64,000 nucleotides of DNA from Actinocatenispora comari. GTDB taxonomy: Bacteria; Actinomycetota; Actinomycetes; Mycobacteriales; Micromonosporaceae. The stretch is from contig NZ_BOPO01000133.1 of assembly GCF_017312725.1 (NCBI RefSeq), positions 1-64,000 on the forward strand. The letters run 5' to 3'. This document shows positions 6,769-64,000 of this stretch, piece by piece. Within the stretch, counting starts at the first letter, position 1; each line of letters starts with the position of its first letter. Position numbers and translations under genes: made by a program. Below the pieces are notes generated by a model. The model was not told where the DNA came from. It made no database searches and worked only from the letters and a program-made list of their open reading frames with translations.

Positions 6769-6774
6769 CCGCGG

Positions 6775-6804
6775 CCGGGTGCCGTCCGTGCGGGCGGCAC
6801 CCGG
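6775..6804. terminator. Bidirectional hairpin terminator
   Basis: Perfect 10-bp arms CCGGGTGCCG (6775-6784) and CGGCACCCGG (6795-6804) around a 10-nt loop, located in the 42-bp gap between convergent pruA and the SDR gene. No U-tract, as is common in high-GC actinobacteria. Confidence 0.75.
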
Positions 6805-6810
6805 GCGGTG

Positions 6811-7833: not shown

Positions 7834-7906
7834 GCCTCCACGGTGCGCCGAGTCGCCGGTACTCTGAATAGTTGTCGGTTCGGATTTCTTGCGCGAGAGT
7901 ACGGGC

Positions 7907-8844: not shown

Positions 8845-9407
8845 TCGCGGTGCAGCGCCTGGTGCAGGAACGCCAGGTAGGCGGGGCGGTCGGCGTCGGG
8901 GAGCAGGGCGCCGGCGGTGGCCCGCTGGGCTTGGAGGAGCCCGATGTAGGCGGTGTACCCGAGCACCGCCCGGAACCGCGCCTCCGGCTCCGGGCAGCCG
9001 GACTGCCGGTACGCGGCGGCGATGAAGTCGACCCGCCGCGCGGTCACGGCCGCGAGTACCGGTGCGACGGCCGGGTGGTCGGCGTGCGCGAGCAGCGCCA
9101 GTTCGGCCCGGTTCGCGGTGGTCCGGCCGATGGTGGCGGCGAGCAGCGCGTCGAGCCGGCGCTGCGGGTCGGTGATCGGTTCGAGGTCCCGGATCACCGC
9201 CTCGGTGTGCCGGTCCGCCCAGTACGCCAGGGCCGCGTCGATCAGCGCGTCCCGGTTGGCGAAGTGCCAGTAGAAGCTGCCCTTGGTGGTACCCAGCCGG
9301 GCCGCGATCGGCTCGACCGCGACCGCGGCGAGCCCACCGTCGGCGAGGGCGGCCAGTGCCGCGTCGGCCCAGTCGGTACGCGTCAGGTTCCGTCTCATCG
9401 CCTCCAT
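8838..9407 (-). CDS. TetR-family transcriptional regulator
   Basis: 189 residues. The N-terminal helix-turn-helix is complete (IAARLGTTKGSFYWHFANRDALIDAAL); the C-terminal ligand domain is of the usual length. The start is ambiguous: ATG 9407 lies inside an operator palindrome and would give a leaderless message, while ATG 9398 (MRRNLTR) has GGAGG only two bases away. It diverges from the SRPBCC gene over a gap filled with two nested palindromes, so it probably represses itself and that gene. Its 3' end overlaps the end of the AraC-type gene by seven bases on the opposite strand. Confidence 0.9.
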   Translation of the reverse strand: MEAMRRNLTRTDWADAALAALADGGLAAVAVEPIAARLGTTKGSFYWHFANRDALIDAALAYWADRHTEAVIRDLEPITDPQRRLDALLAATIGRTTANRAELALLAHADHPAVAPVLAAVTARRVDFIAAAYRQSGCPEPEARFRAVLGYTAYIGLLQAQRATAGALLPDADRPAYLAFLHQALHRDQ

Positions 9408-9433
9408 ACGCTAGCGTATGGTCAGACCATACG
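9405..9433. promoter_or_regulatory. Two overlapping operator palindromes
   Basis: A perfect 16-bp palindrome CATACGCTAGCGTATG (9405-9420) overlaps a second one, CGTATGGTCAGACCATACG (9415-9433, one central base). They share the half-site CGTATG. They sit between the TetR start and the SRPBCC gene, as expected of a TetR operator. Confidence 0.8.
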
Positions 9434-9454
9434 GTGGCGTACGGAGGTGTGGCG

Positions 9455-48388: not shown

Positions 48389-49299
48389 CGGCGCAGCCGC
48401 CGGTCAGCGTGGTCATCGCCACCTGCGACCGGCCCGGCAAGCTGGAACGTGCGGTGCGCGCCGTGCTCGACCAGGACTACGCCGGCAGCGTGCAGTGCCT
48501 CGTCGTGTACGACGGGGTCGAGGTGCGACCGCTCGCCGTCGACGTGCCGCCGGGCCGGGAGCTGGTGCACCTGGCCAACGCCCGCACGAAGGGGCTGCCC
48601 GGTGGCCGCAACACCGGCTGCGACGCGGCGTCCGGCGAGCTGCTGGCGTTCTGCGACGACGACGACTGCTGGCAGCCGGACAAGCTGCGCCGCCAGGTCG
48701 AGGCGCTGCTCGCCGACCCGGCCGGTGTCGCGGTGACCTGCGGGGTGCGGTTGGCGGGCCCCGGGATCGACCGGGACCGCCCCGGCCCGACCCGCCCGGT
48801 CACCCTGGACGACCTGCTCGCCGACCGGATCATGGAGGTGCACCCGTCCACCCTGCTGGTGCCGCGCTCGACGGTGGCGGCGGCCGGGCCGGTCGACGAG
48901 GACATTCCCGGCGGGTACGCCGAGGACTACGAGTGGCTGTTGCGCATCGCCGCGCTGGGGCCGATCGCCGTGGTGCCGGCGCCGCTGGTGGTGGTCGAGT
49001 GGCACGGCGGGTCGTTCTTCTTCGGCCGCTGGGCCACGATCGTCGACGCGCTGCGCTACCTGCTGGAGCGGCATCCGGAGTTCGCCCGCAGCAAGCACGG
49101 CACGGCCCGGATCCGGGGTCAGATCGCGTTCGCGCTGGCCGCCTCGGGTCGGCGCCGGGAGGCGCTGCGCGAGCTGCGGACCGTGGCCCGGCTCAACCCG
49201 GCGGAGAAGCGGATCGCGGCGACCATGCCGGTACTGGCCGGGCTGGTGTCGGGGGAGCGGGTGCTGGCGCTGGCGCAGTCGCGGGGCCGGGGTGTCTGA
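48385..49299 (+). CDS. Family 2 glycosyltransferase
   Basis: 304 residues with a GT-A fold: VSVVIATCDRPGKLERAVRAVL, GLPGGRNTGCDAASGELLAF and the metal site FCDDDDCWQPDKL, then ED(Y)EWLLRIA for the catalytic base. Adds one sugar to the growing exopolysaccharide repeat unit on the cytoplasmic side. GTG 48385 overlaps the copolymerase stop as GTGA. The C-terminal 50 residues are helical and may contact the membrane or the polymerase. Confidence 0.92.
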   Translation: MTAQPPVSVVIATCDRPGKLERAVRAVLDQDYAGSVQCLVVYDGVEVRPLAVDVPPGRELVHLANARTKGLPGGRNTGCDAASGELLAFCDDDDCWQPDKLRRQVEALLADPAGVAVTCGVRLAGPGIDRDRPGPTRPVTLDDLLADRIMEVHPSTLLVPRSTVAAAGPVDEDIPGGYAEDYEWLLRIAALGPIAVVPAPLVVVEWHGGSFFFGRWATIVDALRYLLERHPEFARSKHGTARIRGQIAFALAASGRRREALRELRTVARLNPAEKRIAATMPVLAGLVSGERVLALAQSRGRGV

Positions 49300-50590
49300 G
49301 TACGCCGCGCTGGCCCGCACCGCACCGCTGCCGGCCTGGCCGCTGGTGCTGATGTTCGGGCTGGTACCGGTGTGGTGGCTGGCCGGCGCGTTCTACCTGG
49401 TATGGCCGGTGTTCGGGCTGCTGCTGGCCGGGCTGCTCGCGGCCCGGGGCGGGGTCCGGCTGCCCACCGGGGCGCCGGTCTGGCTGCTGTTCTGCGCGAT
49501 CGCGGCGCTGAGCCTGGTGGAGGTCGAGCGGGTCACCGAGGTGGCCACGGCGCTGCTGCGACTGGCGTTCTACCTGACCGCGCTCGCGGTCGGCGTCTAC
49601 GGGTACACGCTGGCCCGCGAGCGCGGGGTGCGGGTGTTGTGGCTGCCGCTGATGCTGTTCTGGGCGTCGCTCGCGGCACTCGGCTGGGTCGGCGTGCTCG
49701 CACCCGGCCTGTCGTTGGCCACGCCGGTCGAGCGGCTGCTGCCGCACGGGCTGGCCGCCGCCCCGTACGTGCACGACATGGTGCACGCGAGCGGCGCGGA
49801 GCTGCGCGCCGACGGGGTGTCGACGCTGCGCCCGTCCGCGCCGTTCCCGTACACGAACCTGTGGGGCAGCTGCTTCGCGATCCTGCTGCCCGCGGTGCTG
49901 GCGTGCGTGGCGTCGCTCCGGGCCGGCTGGCCGCGGCGGCTGCTGATCCTGTCGGTACCGCTGGCGCTGCCGCCGGCGTTCCTGACCCTCAACCGGGGCA
50001 TGCTCGTCAGCCTCGGCATCGGGCTGGTGTTCGTCGCGCTGCGGGCGGTCCGGCGGGGCCGGCCGCGGCTGCTCGCCACCATCGCCGTGCTGGGCGTCGT
50101 CGCGGTCGCGCTGACCTGGTTCATCCCGATCGACACGCTGATCGCCGCGCGCACCGAGACCAGCGACAGCACCGCCGACCGGCTCAGCCTGTACGGCGAG
50201 GTGCTGCACCGCATCGTCGACTCGCCGCTGCTCGGGTTCGGCGCCCCCACCACCGTCGACACCACCAGCGCGCCGGCCCCGGTGGGTACCCAGGGGCAGT
50301 TGTGGATGGTGTTGTACAGCAACGGGATCCCGGCGCTCGCGGTGTTCCTGGGCTGGTTCCTGGTGACGGTACGCGCCGGGTTGCGGCTGAGGCGCCCGGC
50401 CGGGCTGTGGCTGTCCGCGGTGCCGCTGATCGCGCTGGTGCAGCTGCCGTTCTACGGCCTGAACTACCAGAACCTGTCCGTGCTGTTCCTGGTCGCCGGC
50501 GCGATCGCCGCCGCGGCCACGCCCCGGGTGCGCCGCGCCGCGATCGAGCGCGCCGCGGTGCGCCCGCCGGTACCGGTGGGGTCCCGGTGA
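49292..50590 (+). CDS. O-antigen ligase/Wzy-like polysaccharide polymerase
   Basis: 432 residues with about eleven membrane helices. The Wzy_C block TLNRGMLVSLGIGLVFVALR and the later SPLLGFGAPTTVD (in a loop after about 310) match the O-antigen ligase/polymerase family, which joins lipid-linked repeat units outside the membrane. GTG 49292 overlaps the glycosyltransferase end by eight bases. Probably the polymerase of this cluster. Confidence 0.88.
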   Translation: MSEYAALARTAPLPAWPLVLMFGLVPVWWLAGAFYLVWPVFGLLLAGLLAARGGVRLPTGAPVWLLFCAIAALSLVEVERVTEVATALLRLAFYLTALAVGVYGYTLARERGVRVLWLPLMLFWASLAALGWVGVLAPGLSLATPVERLLPHGLAAAPYVHDMVHASGAELRADGVSTLRPSAPFPYTNLWGSCFAILLPAVLACVASLRAGWPRRLLILSVPLALPPAFLTLNRGMLVSLGIGLVFVALRAVRRGRPRLLATIAVLGVVAVALTWFIPIDTLIAARTETSDSTADRLSLYGEVLHRIVDSPLLGFGAPTTVDTTSAPAPVGTQGQLWMVLYSNGIPALAVFLGWFLVTVRAGLRLRRPAGLWLSAVPLIALVQLPFYGLNYQNLSVLFLVAGAIAAAATPRVRRAAIERAAVRPPVPVGSR

Positions 50591-52215
50591 CCGCGCCGGC
50601 CGGCCGGCACCGCGCCACCGCGGCCCGCCTCGTCCCGGATCCCCGGGGCCGCAACGGTACGCGGCCGGCGGGCGGCAGCGGCGCGACCCCGGCGGGTGGC
50701 GGCGGTACGGACGGCGGGGAGAGCGTCCGGCGCAGCGCGCGCAGCGGCGCGCTCGGTCTCGCCGGTGCCGCGGTGAGCGGGCTGTTCGGGTTCCTGCTGA
50801 CCGTCGTGGTCACCCGCGGCTTCGGTACCGCCGGGTCCGGCGCGTTCTTCGCCCTGGTCGGCGTGATCACCGTCGCCGGCGCGCTGTGCTGCCTCGGCGC
50901 CGACACCGGGCTGATCTGGGCGCTGCCCCGCTGGCGCGACCGCGGGGTGCGGATCCTGATGGTGGCGCTGGTCCCGCCGTTGCTGGCATCGGTGCTGCTC
51001 GCCGGCGCGGTCGCCGCCGCGGCGGGTGCGCTCGCGCCGCGGCTTCTGCCGGACGCGGGCGGCGACGGCGTGGTGCTGCTGCGGCTGGTCGCCGCGGCGC
51101 TGCCGGTGGCGGTGGCCATGACCCTGCTGCTGGCCGCGGTCCGGGCGGTACGGCCGATCCGGCACTACGTCGCGGTCCAGTTCCTGCTGCTGCCGATCAG
51201 CCGGCCGGTGCTGGTCGGTGCCGTCGCGCTGGCCGGCGCCGGACTGGTCGCCGCCGCGATCGGTTGGCTGGTACCGGTCGCGGTCGCGGTGCTGGTCTGC
51301 GCCGCGATGCTGGTGCCGGCGCTGCGCGGGGCCGGCGGCGCTCGACCGGACGGTACCGACTGGCGCCGGTTCTGGGGCTTCGCGTCCGCACGGGCGGCGT
51401 CGGCGGCGATCGACGCGGCGAGCATGTGGGTGGGTGTGCTGCTCACCGCGGCCCTCGCCGGGCAGTCCGAGGCCGGCGTGTTCGGCGCGGTCGGCCGGTA
51501 CGTGCTGGCCGGTCAGCTCGCGATGCAGGGGCTGCGGGTGGCGGTGGCGCCGCAGCTTTCCGCGCTGCTGGGCGCCGGCCGCCGGGCCGACGCCGCGGCG
51601 GTGCACCGGCAGACGACGACCTGGGTGATCGTGCTGTCCTGGCCGGTCTACCTGCTCCTGGCGTTCTTCGCGCCGGGTTTCCTGCGGCTGTTCGGCTCCG
51701 GGTTCACCGCGGGCACCGGCGCGCTGACCGTGCTGGCGGTGGCGATGCTGGTCAACGTCGGGCTCGGCAACGTGCAGACGCTGCTGCTGATGAGCGGCGC
51801 GAGCCGGATCCATCTGGCCGCGGCGGCGGCCGGCCTCGCCGTCACCCTCGGCGGCGGCATCGCGCTGATCCCGCGGTACGGGGCGCTCGGCGCGGCGCTC
51901 GCCTGGGCCGGCGGGATCGTGGTGGAGAACGTGTCCGCGGCGCTGGCCGCCCGCCGCGTGATCGGCGAGCCGTTGCTGTCCGCGGCGCTGGTCCGTACCG
52001 CGCTCGGCGTCGGCGCCGCGGTCTGCGCGGTCGGCGCGGCCGTCGCGGTACCGGCCGGTCGCGGCGTCCTGCCGCTGCTGGTCGCGGTCGGGGTGCTGGC
52101 GCTGGGCGCCGGCGGGGCGCTGGCCGTACCGGGAGTGCGCCGCCGGGTCACGGGGGTCGTCGCGACGTTGCGGCCCCGGCCCGGTGCGGTGTCGGAGAAC
52201 AGGGAAGGGCGGTAG
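50587..52215 (+). CDS. Wzx-like lipid-linked oligosaccharide flippase (MVF/PST superfamily)
   Basis: 542 residues. After a 50-residue cytoplasmic, Gly/Arg-rich tail come about 12 to 14 membrane helices (ALGLAGAAVSGLFGFLLTVVV, VLLTAALAGQSEAGVFGAVG, LTVLAVAMLVNVGLGNVQ). This fits polysaccharide-synthesis flippases of the PST clan. It would turn the lipid-linked repeat unit across the membrane before polymerisation. GTG 50587 overlaps the polymerase gene stop by four bases. Confidence 0.88.
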   Translation: MTAPAGRHRATAARLVPDPRGRNGTRPAGGSGATPAGGGGTDGGESVRRSARSGALGLAGAAVSGLFGFLLTVVVTRGFGTAGSGAFFALVGVITVAGALCCLGADTGLIWALPRWRDRGVRILMVALVPPLLASVLLAGAVAAAAGALAPRLLPDAGGDGVVLLRLVAAALPVAVAMTLLLAAVRAVRPIRHYVAVQFLLLPISRPVLVGAVALAGAGLVAAAIGWLVPVAVAVLVCAAMLVPALRGAGGARPDGTDWRRFWGFASARAASAAIDAASMWVGVLLTAALAGQSEAGVFGAVGRYVLAGQLAMQGLRVAVAPQLSALLGAGRRADAAAVHRQTTTWVIVLSWPVYLLLAFFAPGFLRLFGSGFTAGTGALTVLAVAMLVNVGLGNVQTLLLMSGASRIHLAAAAAGLAVTLGGGIALIPRYGALGAALAWAGGIVVENVSAALAARRVIGEPLLSAALVRTALGVGAAVCAVGAAVAVPAGRGVLPLLVAVGVLALGAGGALAVPGVRRRVTGVVATLRPRPGAVSENREGR

Positions 52216-52219
52216 CCAG

Positions 52220-53113
52220 GTGGCGACGATCAAGGACCGGGTCAAGGAGCTCACCCCGGCGCCGGTGACCGGCGGAGTCAAGCGGGCCCTGGTGCGGTAC
52301 GGCCAGGCCACCGCGTCGCGCCGGCCACTGCCGGACTTCCTGATCATCGGTACCAAGCGCGGCGGCACCACCTCGCTGTGGAACTACCTGCTGCGCCATC
52401 CCGGTGTGCCGCACCTGTTCCCGGCCTGGAACACCAAGACCTCGCACTACTTCGAGGAGAACTGGCACCGCGGCGTCGACTGGTACCGGTCGCACTTCCC
52501 GACCGAACGGCAGCGCGCGGCGCAGTCGGCCCGCTACGGCGGGCCGGTCCGTGCTGGCGAGGCGGCCCCGCTGTACATGTTCCATCCCCTTGCGCCGCAA
52601 CGGGTGCACGAGCTGATGCCGCAGGTGCGGCTGATCGTGCTGCTGCGCGATCCGGTGGAGCGGGCGTACTCGCACTGGAAGGAGCGCCGCACCGAGGGCC
52701 ACGAACCGCTCGACTTCGCCGCCGCACTCGCCGCCGAGCCGGCCCGTACCACCGGGGAGCGGGACCGGCTGATCGCCGAGGAGAACCACTTCAGCGAGCC
52801 GTACGACTGGCACACCTACCGGGCCCGCGGCCGGTACCTGGAGCACCTTGAGCCGTGGCTGGACCGGTTCGACCGGGGCCAGCTGCTGTTCCTGCCCAGC
52901 GAGTCGCTGTACCGGGATCCCGCCGCGACCTACCGCCGGGTGCTGGAGTTCGTCGGGCTGCCGCCCTACGACCCGGGCGAGTTCCGGGTGTACAACGACC
53001 GCCGCTCGGCGCCGATGGACCCGGCGGTGCGCGCCGAGCTCACCGACTACTTCCGGCCGTACAACCGGGCGCTGTCCGAACGGCTCGGCATGCGGTTCGA
53101 CTGGGCGGACTGA
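52220..53113 (+). CDS. PAPS-dependent sulfotransferase
   Basis: 297 residues. The 5'-phosphosulfate loop FLIIGTKRGGTTSLWNYL lies about residue 36 and the 3'-phosphate block LIVLLRDPVERAYSHWKE about residue 135, both as in heparan-sulfate-type sulfotransferases; the C-terminal YRRVLEFVGLPPYDPGEF is also typical. It presumably sulfates the polysaccharide or a lipid-linked precursor. GTG 52220 has AGGGAAGGG upstream, 4 bp after the flippase stop, so it is in the same operon. Confidence 0.92.
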   Translation: MATIKDRVKELTPAPVTGGVKRALVRYGQATASRRPLPDFLIIGTKRGGTTSLWNYLLRHPGVPHLFPAWNTKTSHYFEENWHRGVDWYRSHFPTERQRAAQSARYGGPVRAGEAAPLYMFHPLAPQRVHELMPQVRLIVLLRDPVERAYSHWKERRTEGHEPLDFAAALAAEPARTTGERDRLIAEENHFSEPYDWHTYRARGRYLEHLEPWLDRFDRGQLLFLPSESLYRDPAATYRRVLEFVGLPPYDPGEFRVYNDRRSAPMDPAVRAELTDYFRPYNRALSERLGMRFDWAD

Positions 53114-53156
53114 GCACCGCGCCGGCACCGACCCCGGAACCGGCACGGCTTCGGCC

Positions 53157-53172
53157 GGCCCGGAACCGGGCC
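53157..53172. terminator. Small hairpin between convergent genes
   Basis: GGCCCGG-AA-CCGGGCC at 53157-53172, in the 66-bp gap between the sulfotransferase and APH-like genes. Short loop; terminator role is only probable. Confidence 0.45.
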
Positions 53173-53179
53173 GCGGGTG

Positions 53180-54415
53180 TCACGGCTGGGCCAGGCGGTT
53201 CGCCAGCACGTCGAGGAGGTGGGGATGCAGCAGGGTGTTCCAGCCGGCGCCGGCGTCGGCGATGCGCCAGGTCCGCAGCCACAGCTCCAGCAGGTAGCAG
53301 TCCAGCACCGCGCGCTGCGCCCCGGCGTCCAGGCCGAGCATCGGCCCGTACCGGGCCAGCGCCGCCGCGGCGGCCTCGGTGGCGGCGGCCGCCGGTACCC
53401 CGTCGAGGGTCAGCGCGCGCTGGAAACCGTGGTGCGCCAGGTCGAACCCGACCGGTACGTCGGCGGCGTGGTGCTCCCAGTCCCAGGCGACCAGCCGGCC
53501 GCCGTGGGTGCCGAGGTTCCACGGCACCCAGTCGCCGTGCCAGTGCCCGAACTCCACCGCCACCTCGCCGTACCGTTCCCGCAGCGCCGCGGCGGTCCGG
53601 ACCGCCCGACCGGCCCCGTCGCCACCGGCCGCCACCGCGCCGGTGGCGCCGTCGGCGAGTCCGATGAAGAACTCCGAACCGCGCAGCGGTCGGGGCCGCG
53701 TTGCCGCACCGCCGTTGCGGGCCACCGCGAGCAACTCGGTCGGGTACGGGTCGTCGGGCCGCGGCACCGCCCGCACGTCGGCCGGCAGCGGCTCGATCAC
53801 CGCGATGCTGCGGTCCCGCCACTCCCCGGCGTACCGCAGCCGCGGTACGAACGGGAACCCGGCGCCGGACGGCAGCCCGGCCAGGGTCGCCGCCTCGGCC
53901 CGGACCAGCGCGCGGGTGGCACCGTTCCAGCCGATCTTCGCGTACCCGCGGGGTGCGCCGGTCGGGTCGAACAGCTGCACCGTCGGCTTGTGGTGCGGGT
54001 CCGGCGGCCGTACCCCGATCGCCGCGTGCAGCTCGCCACCGCCGAGACGCTCGGCGAGATGGTGCACCACGTACCGGTCCCGACCGTCCACATCGGACGG
54101 AATGGACACGGTCAGCGACGGCAGCACGCGGGCGGCGCCGGTGCGGGCCGCGGTGCCCAGCGCCCAGCGCAGCGCCCGGGTGCGCGGCTCGCGCAGCGCG
54201 TTGAAGCACAGCAGCGACGCCGCGGTCACCCGGGCCGAGGTCACCGGCAACAGGAACCGGGCCCGCGCCGCGTCCGGCACCACCGCGAACCGGCCCACCG
54301 TGCGCCAGCCGTCGGCGGGTGGCTCACCCGGTACCGACACCCGCACGTCTTCGCCGGCGAACAGCGCCCGGCACACCCACCCCAGCCCGCCCGTCCCAGC
54401 GCGCGGATCGCTCAT
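53180..54415 (-). CDS. APH-like phosphotransferase (small-molecule kinase fold)
   Basis: 411 residues. The C-terminal half has the aminoglycoside-phosphotransferase-type catalytic loop HGDWVPWNLGTH with the Asp/Asn pair and the metal Asp in LVAWDWEH. The N-terminal 150 residues are unlike APH and could hold the substrate. In this cluster it may phosphorylate a sugar or lipid precursor; antibiotic resistance is unlikely from context. ATG 54415 (MSDPRAGTG) begins 32 bases from the divergent WecG-like gene. Confidence 0.8.
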   Translation of the reverse strand: MSDPRAGTGGLGWVCRALFAGEDVRVSVPGEPPADGWRTVGRFAVVPDAARARFLLPVTSARVTAASLLCFNALREPRTRALRWALGTAARTGAARVLPSLTVSIPSDVDGRDRYVVHHLAERLGGGELHAAIGVRPPDPHHKPTVQLFDPTGAPRGYAKIGWNGATRALVRAEAATLAGLPSGAGFPFVPRLRYAGEWRDRSIAVIEPLPADVRAVPRPDDPYPTELLAVARNGGAATRPRPLRGSEFFIGLADGATGAVAAGGDGAGRAVRTAAALRERYGEVAVEFGHWHGDWVPWNLGTHGGRLVAWDWEHHAADVPVGFDLAHHGFQRALTLDGVPAAAATEAAAAALARYGPMLGLDAGAQRAVLDCYLLELWLRTWRIADAGAGWNTLLHPHLLDVLANRLAQP

Positions 54416-54447
54416 CCACCCATCCCTTTCGCCCCTCGGAGCACGCC

Positions 54448-55233
54448 ATGTACGCACCGCAGCGCGTCCACGTCGGCGGTACCCCGGTCGACCTGTGCGA
54501 CACCGACGATCTCGTCGGCCTGACCACCCAGTGGGCCGCGACCGGACGCCGGGCGACGGTCGTCGGGGTCAACGCCCACGTCGTCAACCTCTGCGCCCGG
54601 CAGCCGGCGTTCGCGACCGCGATCGCCGCCGCGGACCTGAACTTCCCGGACGGCCAGTCCATCGTGTGGGCGGCCCGGCTGCTCGGCAACCGGCCGAAGG
54701 GCCGGGTACCGCTCACGCACGTGACGGCGCCGCTGTGCGGCGCCTGGGCCGCGGCCGGGCTGCCGGTGTTCCTGCTCGGCGGCAAGCCGGGCGTCGCCGA
54801 ACGCGCCGGGCAGCGGCTGCGCGCCGAGCACGGCGTGCGGATCGCCGGCGCCCGGCACGGCTACTTCGGCCCGGCCGACGAGCCGGGTCTGCTCGCCGAG
54901 ATCAACGCCAGCGGCGCCCGGATCCTGCTGGTGGGGTTGGGCAACCCGCGCCAGGAACTGTGGCTCGCCGAGCACCGCGACGCGCTCGTACCGCCGGTCG
55001 CGCTGACCTGCGGCGGCTGGCTGGACTGGACCGCCGGCGAGCGCCGCCCGTGCCCGCCGCTGGTGTACCGGTTCGGCCTGGAGTGGGCGTACCGGCTGGC
55101 GCAGGAGCCGCGCCGGCTGTTCGCCCGCTACGTGCTGGGCAACCCGCGCTTCCTCTACCACGTGGTACGGCGTGGCTCCCGCCCGCTGGCCGTCCCGGCC
55201 GCCGAGCGCCCGATGGCACGCCAGGGATCCTGA
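54448..55233 (+). CDS. WecG/TagA/CpsF family glycosyltransferase
   Basis: 261 residues. The GT26 blocks NAHVVNLCARQPAFATAI, LNFPDGQSIVWAARLLGN, GYFGPADEPGLLAEIN, LVGLGNPRQELWLAEH and CGGWLDWTAGERRPCPP are present. Such enzymes add the second sugar (often N-acetylmannosamine-type) to undecaprenyl-linked GlcNAc. ATG 54448 is the biologically sensible start; an open frame runs further left to 54319 without conserved residues. Convergent with the priming transferase. Confidence 0.93.
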   Translation: MYAPQRVHVGGTPVDLCDTDDLVGLTTQWAATGRRATVVGVNAHVVNLCARQPAFATAIAAADLNFPDGQSIVWAARLLGNRPKGRVPLTHVTAPLCGAWAAAGLPVFLLGGKPGVAERAGQRLRAEHGVRIAGARHGYFGPADEPGLLAEINASGARILLVGLGNPRQELWLAEHRDALVPPVALTCGGWLDWTAGERRPCPPLVYRFGLEWAYRLAQEPRRLFARYVLGNPRFLYHVVRRGSRPLAVPAAERPMARQGS

Positions 55234-55262
55234 GCCCGAACCCGGCCGGCGCCGACGATCCA

Positions 55263-56783
55263 TCAGTAGGCGCCGGAACGGCGGAGCACCGCGGTCACCG
55301 TGCGCAGCAGGATCACCAGGTCCAGCGACAGCGACCAGTTGTCCACGTACCGCAGGTCGAGCCGCACCGCGTCGTCGAACGACAGGTCGGCCCGGCCGGA
55401 GACCTGCCACAGCCCGGTGATGCCGGGCCGTACGACCAGCCGCCGGCCCATGTCGGCGGGGTAGCGGGCGACCTCGTCCGGCAGCGGTGGGCGGGGGCCG
55501 ACCAGCGACATGTGCCCGGCCAGCACGTTGAACAGCTGCGGCAGCTCGTCGACGGACAGCGCCCGCAGCACCCGGCCGGCCCGGGTGACGCGCGGATCGT
55601 CGTGCAGCTTGAACAGGACGTTGTCCGGATCGTCGCCGCGCAGTCCGGCGAGCCGGTGCTCGGCGTCGACGTACATGGTGCGCAACTTGATCATGGTGAA
55701 CGGGCGGCCGTCGCGGCCCACCCGCACCTGCCGGAACAGCGCCGGGCCCGGTGAGGTGAGCCGGATCCAGGCGATCGCGGCGGCCAGCAGCGGCCAGGTG
55801 AGCGCGAGCAGCAGCGCGGCGCCGATCCGGTCGGACAGCGCCTTGGCCAGCCGACCGGTACCGCGCAGCCGCGGGTGGGTCACCTGCAGCATCGGCAGCC
55901 CGTCCACCGGGCGCACGGTGATCCGGCCGCCGGACACGTCCATCAGCGAGTTGGCGAGGATCAGGTCGGTGTCGTCGTTCTCCACCTGCCAGGCCAGCCG
56001 CCGCACCGCCGGCCCGTCCAGCTCCGGGCAGGACAGCACGATCACCGCATCGGCCTGGGCCGCCTCGACCGCGTACGCGGCGTCGTCGAAGCTGCCGTAC
56101 ACCGGCAGGTCGACGTCCGGGATCACCAGGTGGCCGCCGAGCCGGTCGAGCCCGCCGTGCCGGGCCAGGTTCGCCACCGGCACGCAGGCGCCGGCGACGC
56201 TCATCCCGTGGTACCGCTCCCGGCGCAGCTGGCGGCACAGGTCGGCGACCGCGCGCACGTGCCCGACGACGACCACCCGGCGCAGCCAGCGGCCGTGCCG
56301 CCGGCCGTGGTGCAGCACCCGCCGCATCACCATCCGGCCGAGCACGGTGCCGGGCACCGTGACGGCGAGGCTGACCACCGTGTACGCCCGGGACAGCCCC
56401 AGATCGCCGAGGTAGGCGGCGAGCGCGACCAGCGCGACGAGCACCACCCCGGATCGGACCACGCGATCGTATTCGGCACTGCCGACGAACAGCTGTCGCC
56501 GGTCGTAGCACTGGTTCGCGGCCAGCACGACCGGCCAGGCGATCGGCAGCGCGCCGGCCATCACCAGGTGGACCACGTTGGCGTGCAACGGAACCGCGCC
56601 GAACACCACGCCCAGCGCGGCCCAGCTGGCGAGCACCGCGACCGTCACGTCCAGGCCGACCAGCCCGACCACGTACCGGCCGACCCAGCCGTGCCCGGGA
56701 CTGCGCTTGTCGGGCTTGCCCGGCGAATCGGGCGTCGGCGGGAACGGTGCGGGTCTTGCGGTCAGAGTCTCCGCAGCCACCAC
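55263..56783 (-). CDS. Undecaprenyl-phosphate sugar phosphotransferase (priming glycosyltransferase)
   Basis: 506 residues of the polyprenyl glycosylphosphotransferase family. Four or five N-terminal helices, a CoA-binding-like middle domain (VVVVGHVRAVADLCRQLRRE), one more helix near 345 and the cytoplasmic catalytic domain: TSPGPALFRQVRVGRDG, FTMIKLRTMY, SVDELPQLFNVLAGHMSLVG and RPGITGLWQVSGR. It starts the repeat unit by moving a sugar-1-phosphate to the lipid carrier. GTG 56783 has GGAGG six bases upstream. A long, structured leader precedes it. Confidence 0.94.
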   Translation of the reverse strand: MVAAETLTARPAPFPPTPDSPGKPDKRSPGHGWVGRYVVGLVGLDVTVAVLASWAALGVVFGAVPLHANVVHLVMAGALPIAWPVVLAANQCYDRRQLFVGSAEYDRVVRSGVVLVALVALAAYLGDLGLSRAYTVVSLAVTVPGTVLGRMVMRRVLHHGRRHGRWLRRVVVVGHVRAVADLCRQLRRERYHGMSVAGACVPVANLARHGGLDRLGGHLVIPDVDLPVYGSFDDAAYAVEAAQADAVIVLSCPELDGPAVRRLAWQVENDDTDLILANSLMDVSGGRITVRPVDGLPMLQVTHPRLRGTGRLAKALSDRIGAALLLALTWPLLAAAIAWIRLTSPGPALFRQVRVGRDGRPFTMIKLRTMYVDAEHRLAGLRGDDPDNVLFKLHDDPRVTRAGRVLRALSVDELPQLFNVLAGHMSLVGPRPPLPDEVARYPADMGRRLVVRPGITGLWQVSGRADLSFDDAVRLDLRYVDNWSLSLDLVILLRTVTAVLRRSGAY

Positions 56784-57332
56784 GCACCACCTCCGCCGCA
56801 GTGCCGGCGACGCGCCAGCTCCAGTTGAGGTCCTCGAAGCCGCAGCGTCGTCGCGAAGGCGACGGGCTGGCGGGGATTTCCGAGGACGTCTCAACTTTAG
56901 AGTGAACCGTTCGTTAACCCAATCCTTCTGTTAGCGATCTGACCGATCGTCGTCCGGCATCCACCCAAACGCGCCATCCTGTTCCGGTGCCGCCGTTCGT
57001 TCGGTCGGCCGAGCGATCGGGCGCCCGGCGACGGGAGGGACCAACCGCGCTCTGCTTGACGCATACTCCGCGGAGCCGTCTGAAACCCGGTGTTCCCGTT
57101 CTTGTCTCGCGGCTCGGCCGGACGCCCACGCCAACAAGGACAGGGAAGCCTGCCCACCTGTGACTGCCCGTTCCACGTCGCGGCACTCCTTGCGGCGCCC
57201 GCCCCGACCGCGAACGCCGGCGTCACCTCGCCCGTACCCGGCGGGCGGGCCCTCAACCGGCGGTTCCACGCGTACCGGGCAGAGCCGGGCGGCCACCACC
57301 TTCACCGGCGACCGGCCGTCGGCTGGTTGCGG
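56784..57332. other. 549-bp intergenic region with EPS leader and promoter
   Basis: Lies between the priming transferase (to the left, minus strand) and the 3' end of the GH43-like gene. It contains a long inverted repeat near 56823-56896 and an AT-rich stretch (56893-56940) that probably holds the minus-strand promoter. The right 390 bp, 56941-57332, shows no gene or known RNA. Confidence 0.55.
56823..56896 (-). promoter_or_regulatory. Structured leader of the priming transferase gene
   Basis: AGTTGAGGTCCTCG (56823-56836) pairs with CGAGGACGTCTCAACT (56881-56896) as a 14-bp stem with a two-base bulge, closing a 44-nt loop that contains a second stem (CGTCG/CGACG around 56846-56864). It ends 39 bases before the start codon's leader. 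Candidate RNA control element of exopolysaccharide synthesis. Confidence 0.5.
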
Positions 57333-59354
57333 TCACGTGGGCGAGTTGGTGGGCCGTACGGCGACGGCGGGGCCGGGCAGCGTCTGCCAGTCACCCCAGC
57401 CGGAGCTCGGGGCGAGCTGGGCGCGGCTGCGGACCACGCCGTTCGGGGTGACGACGAACAGGTGGAGCCGGCCGGCGACGTCGCTGCCGAGGCCGGGTGC
57501 GCCGGCGAAGTCCCCGGTACCGAACTGTTCGGCCGCCGACCAGCTGCCGTCGCCGTTCTGCCAGCGGTGGGTGAGAATCGCCCCGCCCGGCGGCATCAGG
57601 AACGCCTCCAGCCTGCCGTCCGCGCTCGCGGCGACGGTCGGCGACGCGTCCGACCAGGACCCGAATCCGCCCCAGTCGCCCCAACCGCCGCTCGGGGTGG
57701 TCTGGGTCCGGGCGTTGACGCCGACGCCGACCGGGGCCAGTGCGAACACCGTCAGCCGGCCGTCGACGCCGCGCGCGATCGACGGCGCGGAGCCGGCCGG
57801 GGTGGGGCCGAGGGTGGCGTCCCAGTCGCTCCAGTCGCCGTTCGGGGTGTTCTGCCAGCGGTGTGCGAGGTACGCGGCGTCCGGGCCCAGCGCGACGACC
57901 TCCAGCCGGCCGTCGGCGTTGGCGGCGACCACGGGTGGTGCGCCGGCCGGGCCGCCGAAGGTGTTCGCCGCGCCCCAGTCGCCACCCGGCGTCGTCTGCG
58001 ACAGCGTGCTGATGCCGGTACCGGCGGGGTCGAGCAGGAACGCGGCCAGCCGGCCGTCGGCGTGCTGGTCCAGTGCCGGTACCGAGCCGGCCGGGATGCC
58101 GAGATCGACCCAACCGAGCCAGCTTCCGTCGGCGCGCTGGCGCCGGTGCCGCAGCGTTCCGGCGACGACGGCGAACGCCTCCAGCCGGCCGTCGGCGTTG
58201 CGGCCCAGCGCCGGTACCGCGTCGGCGGCCGGGCCGAACGGCGCCCAGTCGGTCCAGCCGGCGTCCGTCTGCTGTCGCACGATCATGCTGGAGTCGTTGC
58301 GGGACAGGGCGAACAGTGTCAGCGTGCCGGTTGCGTCGAGTGCCACCGCCGGATTCGCCGGACCTTGCCAGACCGGCGGTGTCGACCGCCACCGCAGCGG
58401 CGCGAGGTAGATCCCGTGCTCGAACGACCCGGCGCCGGTGACCCACCAGTCGTCGCCGTCGTCGACCACCTCGGCCGCGTGTGTCGGTACGTGCCCGGCA
58501 TCCTCGCCCGGTGCGAACGCGAACGGATCGGTGCTGACGAACACGTCGGTACCGACGTAGCCGTTGCGCGGCCCGATGAACAGGTACCAGGAGTCCCCGC
58601 GCTGCAGGACGAAGGGGGACTCGGTGACCGACGCCGACACGTCGTCGGTCGCCGCGTCGGTGAACACCGTCCGCGGTGCGCTCCAGTTCCGCAGGTCGGT
58701 GCTGGTACGGCAGGCCACGATGTGGTGTGAGTGCCAGGCGGCCAGCTCGCAGTAGTACATCACCCACTGCTCGCCGATCCGCACCACGTACGGGTCCCGC
58801 GCCACCAGGCCGCGAAACAGCGGCCCGGTCGGTACCCGGCTCCAGGTGGTGAGGTCGGTGGAGGTGGCAAGGTTGATCGCGGAGTCGTCGACCCCACCGG
58901 CCGCGTAGAACATGTGGTACGTACCGTCGTGGTACACCACGTGCGGCGCCCACAGGTGCACCTCGCCGAAGTAGTCCGGATCCGCGGTGAGCGCGTCCGG
59001 CAGGGTCGTCCACGGCCCGTGCAGGGCGGGCGCGGTGGCGTGCGCGAAGTGGATCTCCTTGGCACCGTCGGGAAACCGGCCGGGCGGTGCGGCGTCGCCG
59101 ATGATGCCGAACAGGTGCCAGCTGCCGTCCTGCGCCCGGATCACGGTGTGGTCGTTGAGGTACTTCGGCGCGCCCGGAACGGATGCGTCGTAGACGTGCT
59201 CCAGGTCGCCGGCGCCCACCCAGGTGCCCGCCGGTGCGTCGTGGCTGCGCACGGCAGCACGGGTAGCGGCGGTCGCGGCGCCCGCCCGCAGCATCACCCC
59301 GGCGCCTCCGAGTCCACCCAGTACCAGCAGATTCCGGCGCGAGATCGGTGTCAT
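57333..59354 (-). CDS. Secreted GH43-like glycosidase with PLL-like propeller domain
   Basis: 673 residues. A twin-Arg signal (SRRNLLVLGGLGGAG) is followed, about residues 45-330, by a five-bladed propeller of the GH43/GH32 type (YLNDHTVIRAQDGSWHLFGI, LWAPHVVYHDGTYHMFYAAG, ESPFVLQRGDSWYLFIG). Residues 330-665 are six or so PLL-like repeats, each with NADGRLEAFAVV and a W-x-DW motif, a second propeller that often binds sugars. Lies 40 bp downstream of the GH172 gene on the same strand, so they form one operon. Linkage specificity cannot be read from sequence. Confidence 0.85.
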   Translation of the reverse strand: MTPISRRNLLVLGGLGGAGVMLRAGAATAATRAAVRSHDAPAGTWVGAGDLEHVYDASVPGAPKYLNDHTVIRAQDGSWHLFGIIGDAAPPGRFPDGAKEIHFAHATAPALHGPWTTLPDALTADPDYFGEVHLWAPHVVYHDGTYHMFYAAGGVDDSAINLATSTDLTTWSRVPTGPLFRGLVARDPYVVRIGEQWVMYYCELAAWHSHHIVACRTSTDLRNWSAPRTVFTDAATDDVSASVTESPFVLQRGDSWYLFIGPRNGYVGTDVFVSTDPFAFAPGEDAGHVPTHAAEVVDDGDDWWVTGAGSFEHGIYLAPLRWRSTPPVWQGPANPAVALDATGTLTLFALSRNDSSMIVRQQTDAGWTDWAPFGPAADAVPALGRNADGRLEAFAVVAGTLRHRRQRADGSWLGWVDLGIPAGSVPALDQHADGRLAAFLLDPAGTGISTLSQTTPGGDWGAANTFGGPAGAPPVVAANADGRLEVVALGPDAAYLAHRWQNTPNGDWSDWDATLGPTPAGSAPSIARGVDGRLTVFALAPVGVGVNARTQTTPSGGWGDWGGFGSWSDASPTVAASADGRLEAFLMPPGGAILTHRWQNGDGSWSAAEQFGTGDFAGAPGLGSDVAGRLHLFVVTPNGVVRSRAQLAPSSGWGDWQTLPGPAVAVRPTNSPT

Positions 59355-59394: not shown

Positions 59395-62202
59395 TCAGCC
59401 GGAGCGGGCTGCGCCGGTGCGGGTCAGCGACAGGTAGTCGAGACCGGCGTAGTAGTTCGTCGCGGCGTCGTTCTTTCCGGTGACCGTCAGCGTCAGCGTG
59501 TGCGTGCCGGCGGTCAGGGTCTTCGTGCCGAGTGGCAACGGATCACCGACCGCGACGGACCCGGCGTGGTACCCGTCGAACGTCTCGCCGGCCGGCTCGC
59601 CGTCGACGGCGAGCGTGGTGGTCCCGTAGTCGGGCGCTTCGGTCTGCACCGCCTGCAGCGCATAGGAACCGGCGGTCGGCACCGTGAACGACACGGTCAC
59701 CCCATTGCCCGCTGCGGTCGGGGTGAACCACAGCTGCGCCGAGCCGGACCAGTGCACGCCGCAGCAGTCCGACTGCGCCACCACGCCGGCGGTACTGGAC
59801 ACCGGGGGCAGCAGCGACTCCGCCTCGACCACCAGCGTGTTGCTTGCGGTGCCGGCGATCTGGGCCGAGAACGCGCCGCGGTGCCCGGCGGCGTCGACCG
59901 CCCGGATCCGGTACCAGCGGTGCTCGCCGGGCCCGCGACCGGTGTCGGCGAACGCCGGCAGTTCGGTACTGCCGAGCAGGGTGGCCGGGCCAGGCGTGAA
60001 CCCGTCGGTGTCGGAGCCGTAGACCTGGTACCGCGGCTGGTACACGTCGTCGGTGGTCGCCGGCCAGGCGAGCGACACCGCGCCGGAGGCCGGCGTGGTC
60101 TGCACCCCGCCGACCCGGCCGGGTGTGGTCCGGTCGGTGAACGGCGGCACGATCGACAGCGCATGGTACGCCGCGGCGGTCCAGGAAGGCGCGCCGTCGG
60201 CCGGCGTGAGCGTGACGGTCACCGTGCTGCGGCCGGCGGTGAGCGCCGCCGGCAGCACGTACTCGTCGTCGAGCAGCCGGTGGTCGGTGTTGGCGAGCGG
60301 TTGGGTCCAGGTGCCGGCGTCGGCGCCGTCCACCGCGACCTGTACCTGCTGGTAGGCGTGCTGCTGATCGCTGGTGCGCCGCAGCCGTACGCCGGTGTTG
60401 TCCGGATCGACGGCGAGCCGGAACGACACCGCCGTGGCGCTCGCCCGTACCGGGACGGTGAACGGGGTCGGCGTCCCGTCGTTCCCCTCGTACGTGCCGG
60501 TCAGCGGTTGCGGGCCGGCGGAATCACGGGCGTGGTAGCGGTGTGCCGCCTCGCTCGCGGCGTCGCCGACGGTGATCCGGTCGGTCCAGCGGGCGGTGCC
60601 GGTGGGCTGGCCGTACCAGAAGGCGGTGGAGCCGTAGGTGGCCGGATCGTGGTCGCCGGGGCCGTGCTCGATGCCGAACCGGATCGAGCTGCCGAACGCC
60701 GGCCCACCGCCGAGCAGCAGCCGGTAGGCGCTGGTGCAGTCGTACGCGCAGCCCGCGGTCTGCGTCTCGTGCCCGGTGTTGCCGTTGAGCGGATCGGTGT
60801 AGGTGCCGTGGTTGAAGTACCAGCCGCTCTGGTAGAAGTCCTCGGTTCCGGTGCCGTGCATGGCGGGGCTGGCGCTGCCGTCGACGTACAGCCGCTCGTC
60901 GCCTTCGAGGTAGTCGCGCAGGTTCCCGCTGGTGATCTTGCCGATCATGGTCTGGCTGACGCCGATCAGCCGGCCCCGGCCGCTGGTGTCGAGGAACGTG
61001 TGGTCGCGCCCGTCGACGGTGCCGGCGCGGTGCGCGGTGGCGCGGAAGTACCCGTCCGGTCCGCCCGGCGCGAGATCGCGCGCCCAGTGGTCGGCCGGCG
61101 CCGCGGTGACGGACACGTCGCCGCCGCGTATCGCGGTGTCCGAGGAGTTCACCAGCTGCACCGTCGCGCTCTGCCGGTACGGCATCAGCCACCAGCTGGT
61201 GAGCGTCCGCGCGTCCGGGTCGACCCCGAAGTACAACGAGCGCACCGGGTACAGCCCGAGGCCGGTGCCGAAGAACTCGCCGAGCGGGGCGTCGACCGTG
61301 CGCTCGCCGTCGAAGCTGATGCGCAGCCGGACGTGGGCGAGGATCCGGTCGGTGTGCGCGACCGCGTCCGGGTCGCCGCCGGGCGCGGTCAACTGCGGCA
61401 GGTGCAGTCGCAGCGCGGTCAGCGCGCCCGGGCCCTGCTCGGTGTCCAGGGTCGCGGTGTGGCCGGCGGCGACGTCCACGGTGTGCTGCGCCGTGCGGGC
61501 ACCGGGCTGCGCCGGCTTGGGATCGGCGGTACCGGCGGCGGCCAGGGTGGTGAGGACGTCGCTCGCCCGGTCGCTCGGGTCGAACCGGGCGACATGCGCG
61601 CCGGCCGGGAACTGCCGGTAGGTCACGTGGTAGAAGAGCGGGTTCGCGTCGGTGGTCACCCGCATCGAGTGCGCGAACGGCATCGGCACGTCGATGTACA
61701 CCCCGCCGGAGCTCTGGGACGCGTTGGCCACCAACGGATACACGAACGGCGCGCCGATCTTGCCGTCGACCACGTCCTGCAGTGGCGCGTGCAGCACGTC
61801 GGTACCGTCCAGCGTCACCGTGATGTTGCCGGTCCGGCTGACGTCACCGTTGTCCCGGGTGAACCAGATCGAGTCGATCTCGCCTGGTCCGGTGCGCTCG
61901 GCGATCACGCAACCGTCGCCCGTGGTGCGAAGGCACGAGTACGTGCCGTCGAAGCCGTCGCCGTTGCCGCCGGTGCGGTCGAAGCTGGAGAACTGCGCGG
62001 TGCGGCTGCCGGTCGGCAGCTCCGCCAGCCGCTCCGGATGGCGGTAGGTGTCCCAGCCGACCGGGCCGAGCTCCGCCGCGGCGTGCGGTGCGGGGTCGGC
62101 CGCGGCCGGTGCGGCGGTGGCGAGCACGGGTGCGCCGGCGCCGACGAGGACCAGCGCCGAGGCGATGGTCGCGAGGCGGCGCGACCACGGGGATGCGGAC
62201 AT
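59395..62202 (-). CDS. Secreted GH172 (DUF2961) glycoside hydrolase with FN3 and CBM domains
   Basis: 935 residues. Sec signal (SALVLVGAGAPVLATAAPAAA), DUF2961 core about residues 45-420 with SSFDRTGGNGDGFDG, GPGEIDSIWFTRDNGDV, ALRLHLP and ERLYVDGSASPAMHGTGTED; then a beta domain, an FN3-like domain (VGGVQTTPASGAVSLAWPAT) and a C-terminal CBM35/6-like module (VVEAESLLP to NYYAGLDYLSL). Known GH172 enzymes act on alpha-furanosides: fructans, fructofuranosides or D-arabinofuranosides including mycobacterial arabinan. ATG 62202 has GGAGG upstream. Promoter carries GAAATCGATTTC. Confidence 0.9.
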   Translation of the reverse strand: MSASPWSRRLATIASALVLVGAGAPVLATAAPAAADPAPHAAAELGPVGWDTYRHPERLAELPTGSRTAQFSSFDRTGGNGDGFDGTYSCLRTTGDGCVIAERTGPGEIDSIWFTRDNGDVSRTGNITVTLDGTDVLHAPLQDVVDGKIGAPFVYPLVANASQSSGGVYIDVPMPFAHSMRVTTDANPLFYHVTYRQFPAGAHVARFDPSDRASDVLTTLAAAGTADPKPAQPGARTAQHTVDVAAGHTATLDTEQGPGALTALRLHLPQLTAPGGDPDAVAHTDRILAHVRLRISFDGERTVDAPLGEFFGTGLGLYPVRSLYFGVDPDARTLTSWWLMPYRQSATVQLVNSSDTAIRGGDVSVTAAPADHWARDLAPGGPDGYFRATAHRAGTVDGRDHTFLDTSGRGRLIGVSQTMIGKITSGNLRDYLEGDERLYVDGSASPAMHGTGTEDFYQSGWYFNHGTYTDPLNGNTGHETQTAGCAYDCTSAYRLLLGGGPAFGSSIRFGIEHGPGDHDPATYGSTAFWYGQPTGTARWTDRITVGDAASEAAHRYHARDSAGPQPLTGTYEGNDGTPTPFTVPVRASATAVSFRLAVDPDNTGVRLRRTSDQQHAYQQVQVAVDGADAGTWTQPLANTDHRLLDDEYVLPAALTAGRSTVTVTLTPADGAPSWTAAAYHALSIVPPFTDRTTPGRVGGVQTTPASGAVSLAWPATTDDVYQPRYQVYGSDTDGFTPGPATLLGSTELPAFADTGRGPGEHRWYRIRAVDAAGHRGAFSAQIAGTASNTLVVEAESLLPPVSSTAGVVAQSDCCGVHWSGSAQLWFTPTAAGNGVTVSFTVPTAGSYALQAVQTEAPDYGTTTLAVDGEPAGETFDGYHAGSVAVGDPLPLGTKTLTAGTHTLTLTVTGKNDAATNYYAGLDYLSLTRTGAARSG

Positions 62203-62259: not shown

Positions 62260-62271
62260 GAAATCGATTTC
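62260..62271. promoter_or_regulatory. LacI-type operator before GH172
   Basis: Perfect 12-bp palindrome GAAATCGATTTC, 58 bp upstream of the GH172 start. Identical to the palindrome at 63732-63743 before the sugar ABC transporter. Confidence 0.85.
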
Positions 62272-62398
62272 TCGGTAAACTAGCGTTACCGCCACAAACG
62301 TGTCAAGAGCCGATCACGGCGTGCAAATCCGGCGCGCGGTCCAGGCTTGCGGCACCGGCCGGGCACCACGCGGCGTCACCAGTGCCGGCGCGGTCACA

Positions 62399-62438
62399 CC
62401 CGACGGGCCGGAGCCTGTCCCGGCTCCGGCCCGTCGGG
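62399..62438 (-). terminator. 17-bp hairpin terminator
   Basis: Perfect arms CCCGACGGGCCGGAGCC (62399-62415) and GGCTCCGGCCCGTCGGG (62422-62438) with a TGTCCC loop, downstream of the DPBB gene on the minus strand. Confidence 0.8.
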
Positions 62439-62488
62439 CGCGCAGGGCGATGCGGCGGCAGTACGGCCGGCGCCGAAGACCGGGGCGA

Positions 62489-63439
62489 TCAGCCGGTCCA
62501 GAGGAAGCTCACGTCCACGTAGCCGTTGTCGCTCAACCCCAGGTCGGCGAAGGTGCCGTCGGCGAGGTCGATGCCGGCCGGGTTCGCCACCGACCGGCCG
62601 AACTCGTCCTTGCCCCCGTTGTACCCGTCGTCGTACGCGGCCTGCGCCTCTGGCGTGCCCTGCGGCAGGTCCTGCCACCGTTCCCGGCTGGCCGGCGGTG
62701 ACCAGTAGTCGTCGTGGGTGTTCCACGGTCCGACGTCCCACACCGGCTGGTCCAGGCAGGTGCCGGTGGCCGGGTTGCACACGTGCACCGAGTAGTCGTC
62801 GCTGCCCTTCGGCGACAGCCCGCGGCCGGACGGCAGCGCGACGAAATGGTCGTTCTTGGTGATGACGTGGCCGTTCGCGGTGGTGCCGCCGACCAGCCCC
62901 TCGCGGGTGGCGAAGACGTGCGCGGTGGCCGCCGCTCGCGGCGCCCGGGCGCTCTCGCCGGAGTTGCGTGCCTCGGCCCGGATCCGTTGTACCACCGGCG
63001 TTCTCGTGATCGTCGTGGTCAGCGTCACGCGGGCCTGCACCTGGCGTACCGCGGTGTCGAAGTGCGCGTCCGTGCCGGGCTGCCAGCCGGTCCACCGGCC
63101 ATCCGACGACCGGCCCCGGACCTCGAGCGTCACCGTGGTGCCGTTCGGCGTGCGGGCGACCGCGGTGGCGTGCACCGTGTCGGCCGGTGCGCTCAGGGTG
63201 TGCGCCGGCAGAATCTCGCTCGCGTACCCGCCGCCGCCGGACGAGGCGGGATGCCAACCGGTGTGGTGGATCCGCAGCGCGCCGCCGGAGTACTCGGTGT
63301 TGACCTGCTGGCCGTCGGCGAGGTCGCTGGTCCACGACTGGACGGCGGTGGGCGGCGCGGCGAGCGCCGCGGCCGGTACCGCGGCGGCCAGCAGTGCCGC
63401 CGCTGCCGCCGCGGGCAGGCGGAGAGCCGGATGTCGCAT
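62489..63439 (-). CDS. Secreted DPBB-like (double-psi beta-barrel) protein
   Basis: 316 residues with a Sec signal ([20 protein letters not shown]). The middle is a beta-rich domain of about 110 residues ([20 protein letters not shown]); the C-terminal 140 residues ([22 protein letters not shown], then [17 protein letters not shown]) resemble the double-psi beta-barrel of RlpA/3D-type proteins, with the conserved Asp and Gly. Such domains bind or cleave peptidoglycan or polysaccharide. ATG 63439 has AGGAGG upstream. It is not in the LacI-type regulon by its own promoter. Confidence 0.72.
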
Positions 63440-63810
63440 GCAGCCTCCTGACACGTGTCGCTGTGACCGATAAGACGCTTTTATACGTTTCATCCGTATA
63501 TATTGTAAGGAAGTGCCCACGGATCGTGCGGGGATTCCCGCGAACGTGGGCGTCGGCGGGCCTGCCGCCGAGACCTTCGGTGGCGACCGGAGTGTGGTGT
63601 CGCCGTTGGGCGGGAACGAGGGTGCGCAACCGTAGTGCCTCGTCGCTGCCCCGTCAACCGATTCGTGCTGGTTTCCGGGAGTTTTCGCGGCGCCTTGACA
63701 CGACTTGCGTGCAACGCCTAGCTTCTCATCAGAAATCGATTTCCTCTGGCTGTGCTGTCTTCGGTCGGCCGCGCCGCCGACCGCGTGACCCGCCCCCTAG
63801 GAGGCGCGCC
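63440..63810. other. Divergent promoter region
   Basis: 371 bp between the DPBB gene and the sugar ABC importer. The left end is AT-rich (63475-63510, with TATACGTTTCATCCGTATAT, near-palindromic), presumably the DPBB promoter; the right end holds the importer promoter and operator. No gene is visible. Confidence 0.6.
63695..63743 (+). promoter_or_regulatory. Importer promoter with LacI-type operator at +1
   Basis: TTGACA (63695-63700), 18-bp spacer, TAGCTT (63719-63724), then the operator GAAATCGATTTC (63732-63743) over the expected transcription start. A repressor bound here would block initiation. The palindrome is identical to the one before GH172. Confidence 0.85.

Positions 63811-64000
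<190 letters not shown>

Follow-up and report, generated by a model that had tools for sequence, protein, structure and literature searches.

Two exact copies of the 12-bp palindrome GAAATCGATTTC, located upstream of a secreted GH172 operon and of a CUT2-type sugar importer operon in Actinocatenispora comari, are very probably operators bound by a LacI-family repressor whose regulon serves D-arabinan catabolism and occupies several chromosomal loci; the likely repressor is the LacI protein encoded on contig C23. Mycobacterial arabinogalactan and lipoarabinomannan contain D-arabinan, and genes for enzymes that cut this polymer were identified only in 2023. The window, by which is meant the whole stretch of DNA analysed, comprises the first 64,000 nucleotides of contig NZ_BOPO01000133.1 (C133).

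Both copies of the palindrome were found at the positions that the first-pass annotation had given (Table 1), and a search of the draft genome (7.96 Mb in 151 contigs, 96.5% complete) retrieved no others, the two copies comparing with approximately 0.02 expected from base composition. The exact motif is hence not scattered through the genome. Read backwards, GAAATCGATTTC was absent from the whole 7.96 Mb, whilst matches with up to two mismatches numbered four in the window against 0.18 expected. Each copy lies behind a TTGACA and TAG(T/C)TT pair separated by an 18-nt spacer, with a gap of 5 nt (operator 1) or 7 nt (operator 2) between the -10-like box and the palindrome, and for this reason both are placed over the predicted transcription start. 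Such a position is a common arrangement for a repressor site, and the earlier proposals of a common LacI-type operator and of a second copy covering the presumed start site of the importer transcript are supported. The ATG codons of the GH172 gene (62202) and of RbsA (63811) lie 57 nt and 67 nt, respectively, from the operator ends. The gene between the two operons, which encodes a secreted protein previously annotated as DPBB and had no Pfam or NCBIfam family match at E 0.001, was correctly described as having no site of its own; in the divergent direction, operator 2 is found 292 nt ahead of this gene's start.

Table 1. Positions of the predicted operators, promoters and genes; the last two rows lie beyond the window on the same contig
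Feature	Position	Strand	Evidence or comment
GH43/GH32-like domain fused to PLL-lectin repeats	57333..59354	-	Second gene of the GH172 operon
Secreted GH172 (DUF2961), C-terminal CBM-like domain	59395..62202	-	PF11175, 200.8 bits
Operator 1, GAAATCGATTTC	62260..62271	.	Exact match; precedes the secreted GH172 gene
Promoter-like TTGACA (62306-62301), 18-nt spacer, TAGTTT (62282-62277)	62277..62306	-	Direct reading
Secreted protein between the operons	62489..63439	-	
Promoter-like TTGACA (63695-63700), 18-nt spacer, TAGCTT (63719-63724)	63695..63724	+	Direct reading
Operator 2, GAAATCGATTTC	63732..63743	.	Exact match; precedes the importer operon
RbsA-type double ATPase	63811..64000, on to contig position 65397	+	Pfam ABC_tran
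RbsC permease	65399..66493	+	Pfam BPD_transp_2; same operon
CUT2 substrate-binding lipoprotein (SBP)	66490..67491	+	Pfam Peripla_BP_4; same operon

The protein encoded behind operator 1 consists of 935 aa with a signal-peptide-like N-terminus, and its DUF2961 catalytic domain scored 200.8 bits against a cut-off of 27, with further matches to solved GH172 enzymes and to the module 7ehg. Its catalytic glutamate motifs, YLEGDE and GTGTED, correspond to E233 and E254 of DgGH172c and are kept in relatives, which share 51-72% identity. At the position that selects between Fruf and Araf it carries a Tyr, common to all of the relatives listed, which is neither the Asn253 of ExoMA1 nor the Gly299 of αFFase1, and no characterised Tyr-type enzyme was found. 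The second gene of the operon encodes a domain matching Glyco_hydro_43 (44.3 bits; cut-off 32.2) as well as GH32N (23.9 bits; cut-off 22.1), joined to repeats that matched PLL lectins at 151 bits. The earlier assignment of the two products, one to secreted GH172 and the other to a GH43-like/PLL enzyme, is supported. A Tat-like leader (SRRNLL) was recognised by eye, the acidic motifs NDHT, ARDP (or GRDP) and TESPFV are kept in close relatives with conserved D, D and E residues, and an AlphaFold2 prediction of the GH43-like domain made without an alignment had a mean pLDDT of 33 and was set aside. In three relatives (L063, L066 and L068), proteins of approximately 2000 aa that appear SpvB/RHS-like by eye adjoin the secreted GH172.

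The RbsA-like importer was found to be complete as one operon, in which the double ATPase is followed by the permease and a Peripla_BP_4 SBP, all with Pfam matches above cut-off; no NCBIfam equivalog cut-off was reached. The expectation that a permease, a binding protein and a LacI regulator would be read downstream held for the first two but not for the third, as none of the 24 LacI HTH matches in the genome lies on this contig and the likely regulator is the one on C23. Fructofuranose carries a D-arabino ring, so that the best solved match of the SBP, the fructose sensor BT1754 (2x7x; 150 bits, the next being 108), cannot separate D-arabinose from fructose as its putative cargo. The importer resembles the CUT2 systems RbsABC and YtfQRT-YjfF in its double ATPase, permease and Peripla_BP_4 SBP, and differs from them in that the SBP is nearest to BT1754 and in a distribution tied to the secreted GH172. 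Strong matches to the latter were present in 21 of 151 family genomes, and the SBP orthologue in nine of the 151, all nine being among those 21 (hypergeometric 3e-9, uncorrected for kinship). In one of the nine (G117) the SBP and GH172 genes are on different contigs, yet two exact operators lie upstream of RbsA.

The regulon is not the compact pair of operons first proposed, as it extends to at least contigs C23 and C50 and probably to C36; its genes, dispersed here over C133, C23, C50 and C36, are partly joined in relatives. When the genome was searched at up to two mismatches, one-mismatch sites were found at six further places, two on C23 and one each on C50, C55, C73 and C127. On C23, GAAACCGATTTC separates the LacI gene from a second, divergently oriented GH172 gene, at approximately 110 nt from both starts, and this GH172 gene is followed by a CUT1 importer. 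A further copy of GAAACCGATTTC on the same contig precedes a gene for a secreted protein weakly like DUF4185. On C50, GAAATCGAATTC, within GTGAGAATTCGATTTCTCAC, lies just upstream of the sole clear DUF4185 (GH183) gene of the genome, a member of the endo-D-arabinanase family (170.7 bits). From the positions of the exact and one-mismatch sites it follows that an operator precedes each of four genes, namely the only two GH172 genes in the genome, the clear GH183 gene and that of the DUF4185-like protein. A shared palindrome at the promoters of linked genes, together with a lacI gene that itself has the operator upstream, is the pattern expected of a LacI-type regulon, and the predicted system is like other LacI-family sugar regulons with CG-centred palindromic operators in that the operator lies over the promoter start and that both enzymes and importers appear to be controlled. 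No regulon gene was evident next to the sites on C73 and C127, which were discounted as probably due to chance. The 563-aa protein of C23 had been read by eye as DUF4185, a family for which it scored 28.6 bits against a cut-off of 39.5, with no match by hmmscan or in the PDB; owing to this weak support it is labelled DUF4185-like only. On C55, at position 2372 (L019), GAAAACGATTTC precedes the likely start of a gene for a secreted BNR/sialidase-like protein by approximately 50 nt, and this gene may be another regulon member.

The enzymes linked to these sites have close characterised counterparts. The C23 GH172 matched the exo-alpha-D-arabinofuranosidase ExoMA1 (8ic8) at 504 bits, the next best being αFFase1 at 137, and has Asn at the position of ExoMA1 Asn253. 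Contig C36 encodes a GH116 that matched ExoMA2 (8ic6), an exo-beta-D-arabinofuranosidase, at 423 bits, with the next family members at 90, in a cluster that also contains a clear FGGY kinase, a fucose-isomerase-like protein, a LacI and a CUT1 importer. The isomerase-like protein is only weakly so (24.9 bits, below the Pfam cut-off of 29.3), and is 82% identical to one encoded beside LacI, secreted GH172 and RbsA-RbsC genes in a relative. Sites with two mismatches precede the kinase gene and the gene of the CUT1 SBP, and on account of these mismatches C36 is assigned to the same regulon less firmly than C23 and C50, though its membership remains likely; the cluster may also be under its own LacI.

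The argument that the palindromes merely fell into two unrelated promoters, with no regulon behind them, can draw on the shortness of the motif and on there being just two exact copies; it is nonetheless vanishingly improbable, given the low expected count and the matching promoter positions of both operators, and is already contradicted by the conservation of the predicted sites, which recur before orthologous genes within the genus (L061 and L090) and in other genera (L060, L069, L071 and L095). In L061 the promoter of the secreted GH172 repeats the arrangement of the window, with TTGACA, 18 nt, TAGCTT, 9 nt and the operator. It is rather unlikely, though far from negligible, that the D-arabinan regulon is real but has a different LacI protein, for instance that of C36, or several that share the palindrome, bound at the operators of the window. 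The genome has 24 LacI-type HTH domains, which leaves room for a paralogue, for example the C36 LacI, to occupy these operators; identity between this protein and the C23 LacI orthologues is approximately 48%, its gene is inside the isomerase, kinase and GH116 cluster, C23 is unlinked to the window, and the palindrome is also frequent around other lacI genes. Where those genes are more distant (33-48% identity), the surrounding loci were enriched too, with 44 sites against 1.75 expected, and GAAATCGATTTC is hence a fairly generic LacI-type palindrome rather than one unique to the C23-type regulator. Five loci in relatives nevertheless favour the C23 LacI, its orthologue being encoded there near genes for an importer, a secreted GH172 and a GH43-like protein; in L069 and L071 the secreted GH172 gene is nearby and the GAAATCGATTTC sites are exact, and in L053, L056 and L057 the two genes are adjacent and the sites near-consensus; the palindromic C36 site, GTAATCGATTGC, in turn deviates from GAAATCGATTTC at the second and penultimate bases. 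In named genomes (Actinocatenispora rupis, Nonomuraea, Micromonospora, Hamadaea and Jiangella, amongst others), 20 loci with LacI orthologues (57-82% identity) together contained 36 sites that differ from the palindrome by no more than one base, where 0.1 were expected; 15 of the 20 had at least one such site, and many of the orthologues have an operator and are surrounded by genes for GH183, GH172, kinase and isomerase. A C50-type GH183 gene adjoins the LacI gene in A. rupis, which ties C50 to C23. The C23 LacI is thus retained as the likely regulator of the window operators.

With regard to the polymer, the earlier choice between arabinan and fructan can be narrowed to D-arabinan, since a GH183, an ExoMA1-type GH172, an ExoMA2-type GH116, an isomerase-like protein and a kinase are linked to the sites, and D-arabinan is the most likely substrate. 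A system for fructan or difructose anhydride, with the GH172 as an αFFase1-like alpha-D-fructofuranosidase, the GH43/32-like enzyme acting on fructan and a fructose importer, would be in keeping with the membership of αFFase1 in GH172, the GH32N match and the resemblance of the SBP to BT1754, a resemblance expected under both readings. αFFase1 of Bifidobacterium dentium (PMC8605356; PDB 7V1V) indeed shares the DUF2961 family and the catalytic Glu motifs, but has Gly299, which admits the hydroxymethyl group of fructose. Operator-linked GH172s instead carry Asn, Cys or Tyr at this position, with Tyr in the secreted and Asn in the cytosolic enzyme here, and the corresponding Asn253 of ExoMA1 is reported to block fructose. 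Gly-type GH172s do occur in relatives (L076 and L078-L081), where most have a GH32-like gene and a LacI of another kind (32-34%) as neighbours. No site matching the operator pattern was found at these loci, which are probable alpha-fructofuranoside clusters and thereby contrast with D-arabinan-type loci. Following this comparison of selector residues and neighbouring genes, the fructan reading was set aside as very improbable; the Tyr of the secreted GH172 alone would decide neither way, and it is the linkage of the gene that favours D-arabinan. Whole-cell hydrolysates of Micromonosporaceae contain arabinose, which might suggest that the enzymes recycle or remodel the arabinose-containing wall of the producer itself, and mycobacteria likewise retain GH183 enzymes thought to be active on their own walls (PMC10115798). 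Such self-turnover is improbable, as the presence of similar sites at importer, isomerase and kinase genes points to catabolism and no match to the Emb-type arabinosyltransferase (PF04602) was obtained in the 96.5% complete genome, a draft in which this absence is not final, whereas the Corynebacterium glutamicum control was positive. Taken with the import and catabolism genes, the missing Emb match favours foraging on D-arabinan of other organisms, for which Mycobacteriales are the most plausible source, and fits the original suggestion that other actinobacterial cell walls could be the target.

In the D-arabinan pathway proposed here, the C23 LacI would block the promoters at their start sites until D-arabinose or an arabino-oligosaccharide is present. 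Outside the cell, the C50 GH183, and possibly also the DUF4185-like protein of C23, would cut alpha-D-arabinan, from whose chain ends the secreted GH172 of the window would remove alpha-D-Araf, with the GH43-like/PLL protein either removing another furanosyl linkage or anchoring the enzymes. Free pentose would then enter through the CUT2 importer of the window, and oligosaccharides through the CUT1 importers of C23 and C36, to be degraded by the cytosolic ExoMA1-type GH172 and the ExoMA2-type GH116. The C36 fucose-isomerase-like enzyme and FGGY kinase are predicted to convert the D-arabinose to D-ribulose 5-phosphate.

The enzymology of D-arabinan is already known (PMC10115798, PMC10509167). 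The locus of Microbacterium arabinogalactanolyticum comprises a GH183 endo-enzyme, a cytosolic GH172 (ExoMA1), a GH116 (ExoMA2), an SBP_bac_8 importer, an isomerase and a kinase, and is induced by D-arabinose and by mycobacterial wall extract (PMC10509167). The genes predicted here match it in the GH183, the ExoMA1-type GH172, the ExoMA2-type GH116, an SBP_bac_8-type importer, the isomerase-like protein and the kinase. That system is, however, a single locus whose GH172 has no signal sequence and for which the main text mentions no regulator (PMC10509167), whereas in A. comari the genes form several unlinked loci with LacI-type operators and include a secreted GH172 with a CBM-like domain, a CUT2 importer and a GH43-like/PLL enzyme. 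PUL42 of Dysgonomonas gadei (PMC10115798) is a Bacteroidota locus, and thus from another phylum; the present system is distinguished from it by ABC importers and predicted LacI control. Secreted GH172s like the present one, CUT2 importers and GH43-like/PLL partners are described in neither PMC10115798 nor PMC10509167, and in a limited literature collection we found neither a description of an operator or LacI regulator for D-arabinan nor a joint mention of D-arabinan and LacI. It is about an even prospect that the secreted Tyr-type GH172s and the GH43-like/PLL proteins of the same operons constitute an undescribed extracellular branch of D-arabinan degradation in actinomycetes. This branch would release D-arabinose outside the cell for uptake by a dedicated CUT2 importer, the GH43-like enzyme would attack an additional linkage or a cap in mycobacterial arabinan or galactan, and a D-arabinose-responsive LacI would control the whole. 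An operator that marks the pathway would allow further D-arabinan genes to be found by scanning for the site, and the analysis defines candidates in a clade of secreted GH172s, an importer for pentose, a hydrolase of the GH43-like/PLL type and a regulator with potential as a D-arabinose sensor. It also suggests regulated feeding on Mycobacteriales walls by soil actinomycetes that themselves have no match to the Emb arabinosyltransferase.

Some minor observations were made alongside these results. Approximately 10 of 29 exact sites inspected in family genomes had no regulon gene nearby (within 1.5 kb), which weighs against the palindrome being specific to this regulon; seven such loci, L106, L107 and L110-L114, belong mostly to one genus and may represent either another LacI regulon or chance. 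In L061 (genome G012, same genus), at approximately 6690-9450, the secreted GH172 is encoded as two overlapping frames with a stop, either a broken gene or a sequencing error, and its operator and promoter are intact. Positions 49292-56894 of the window appear by eye to be a surface-polysaccharide cluster, encoding polymerase-, flippase- and sulfotransferase-like proteins together with a WecG/TagA-like protein and an undecaprenyl-phosphate sugar transferase-like protein.
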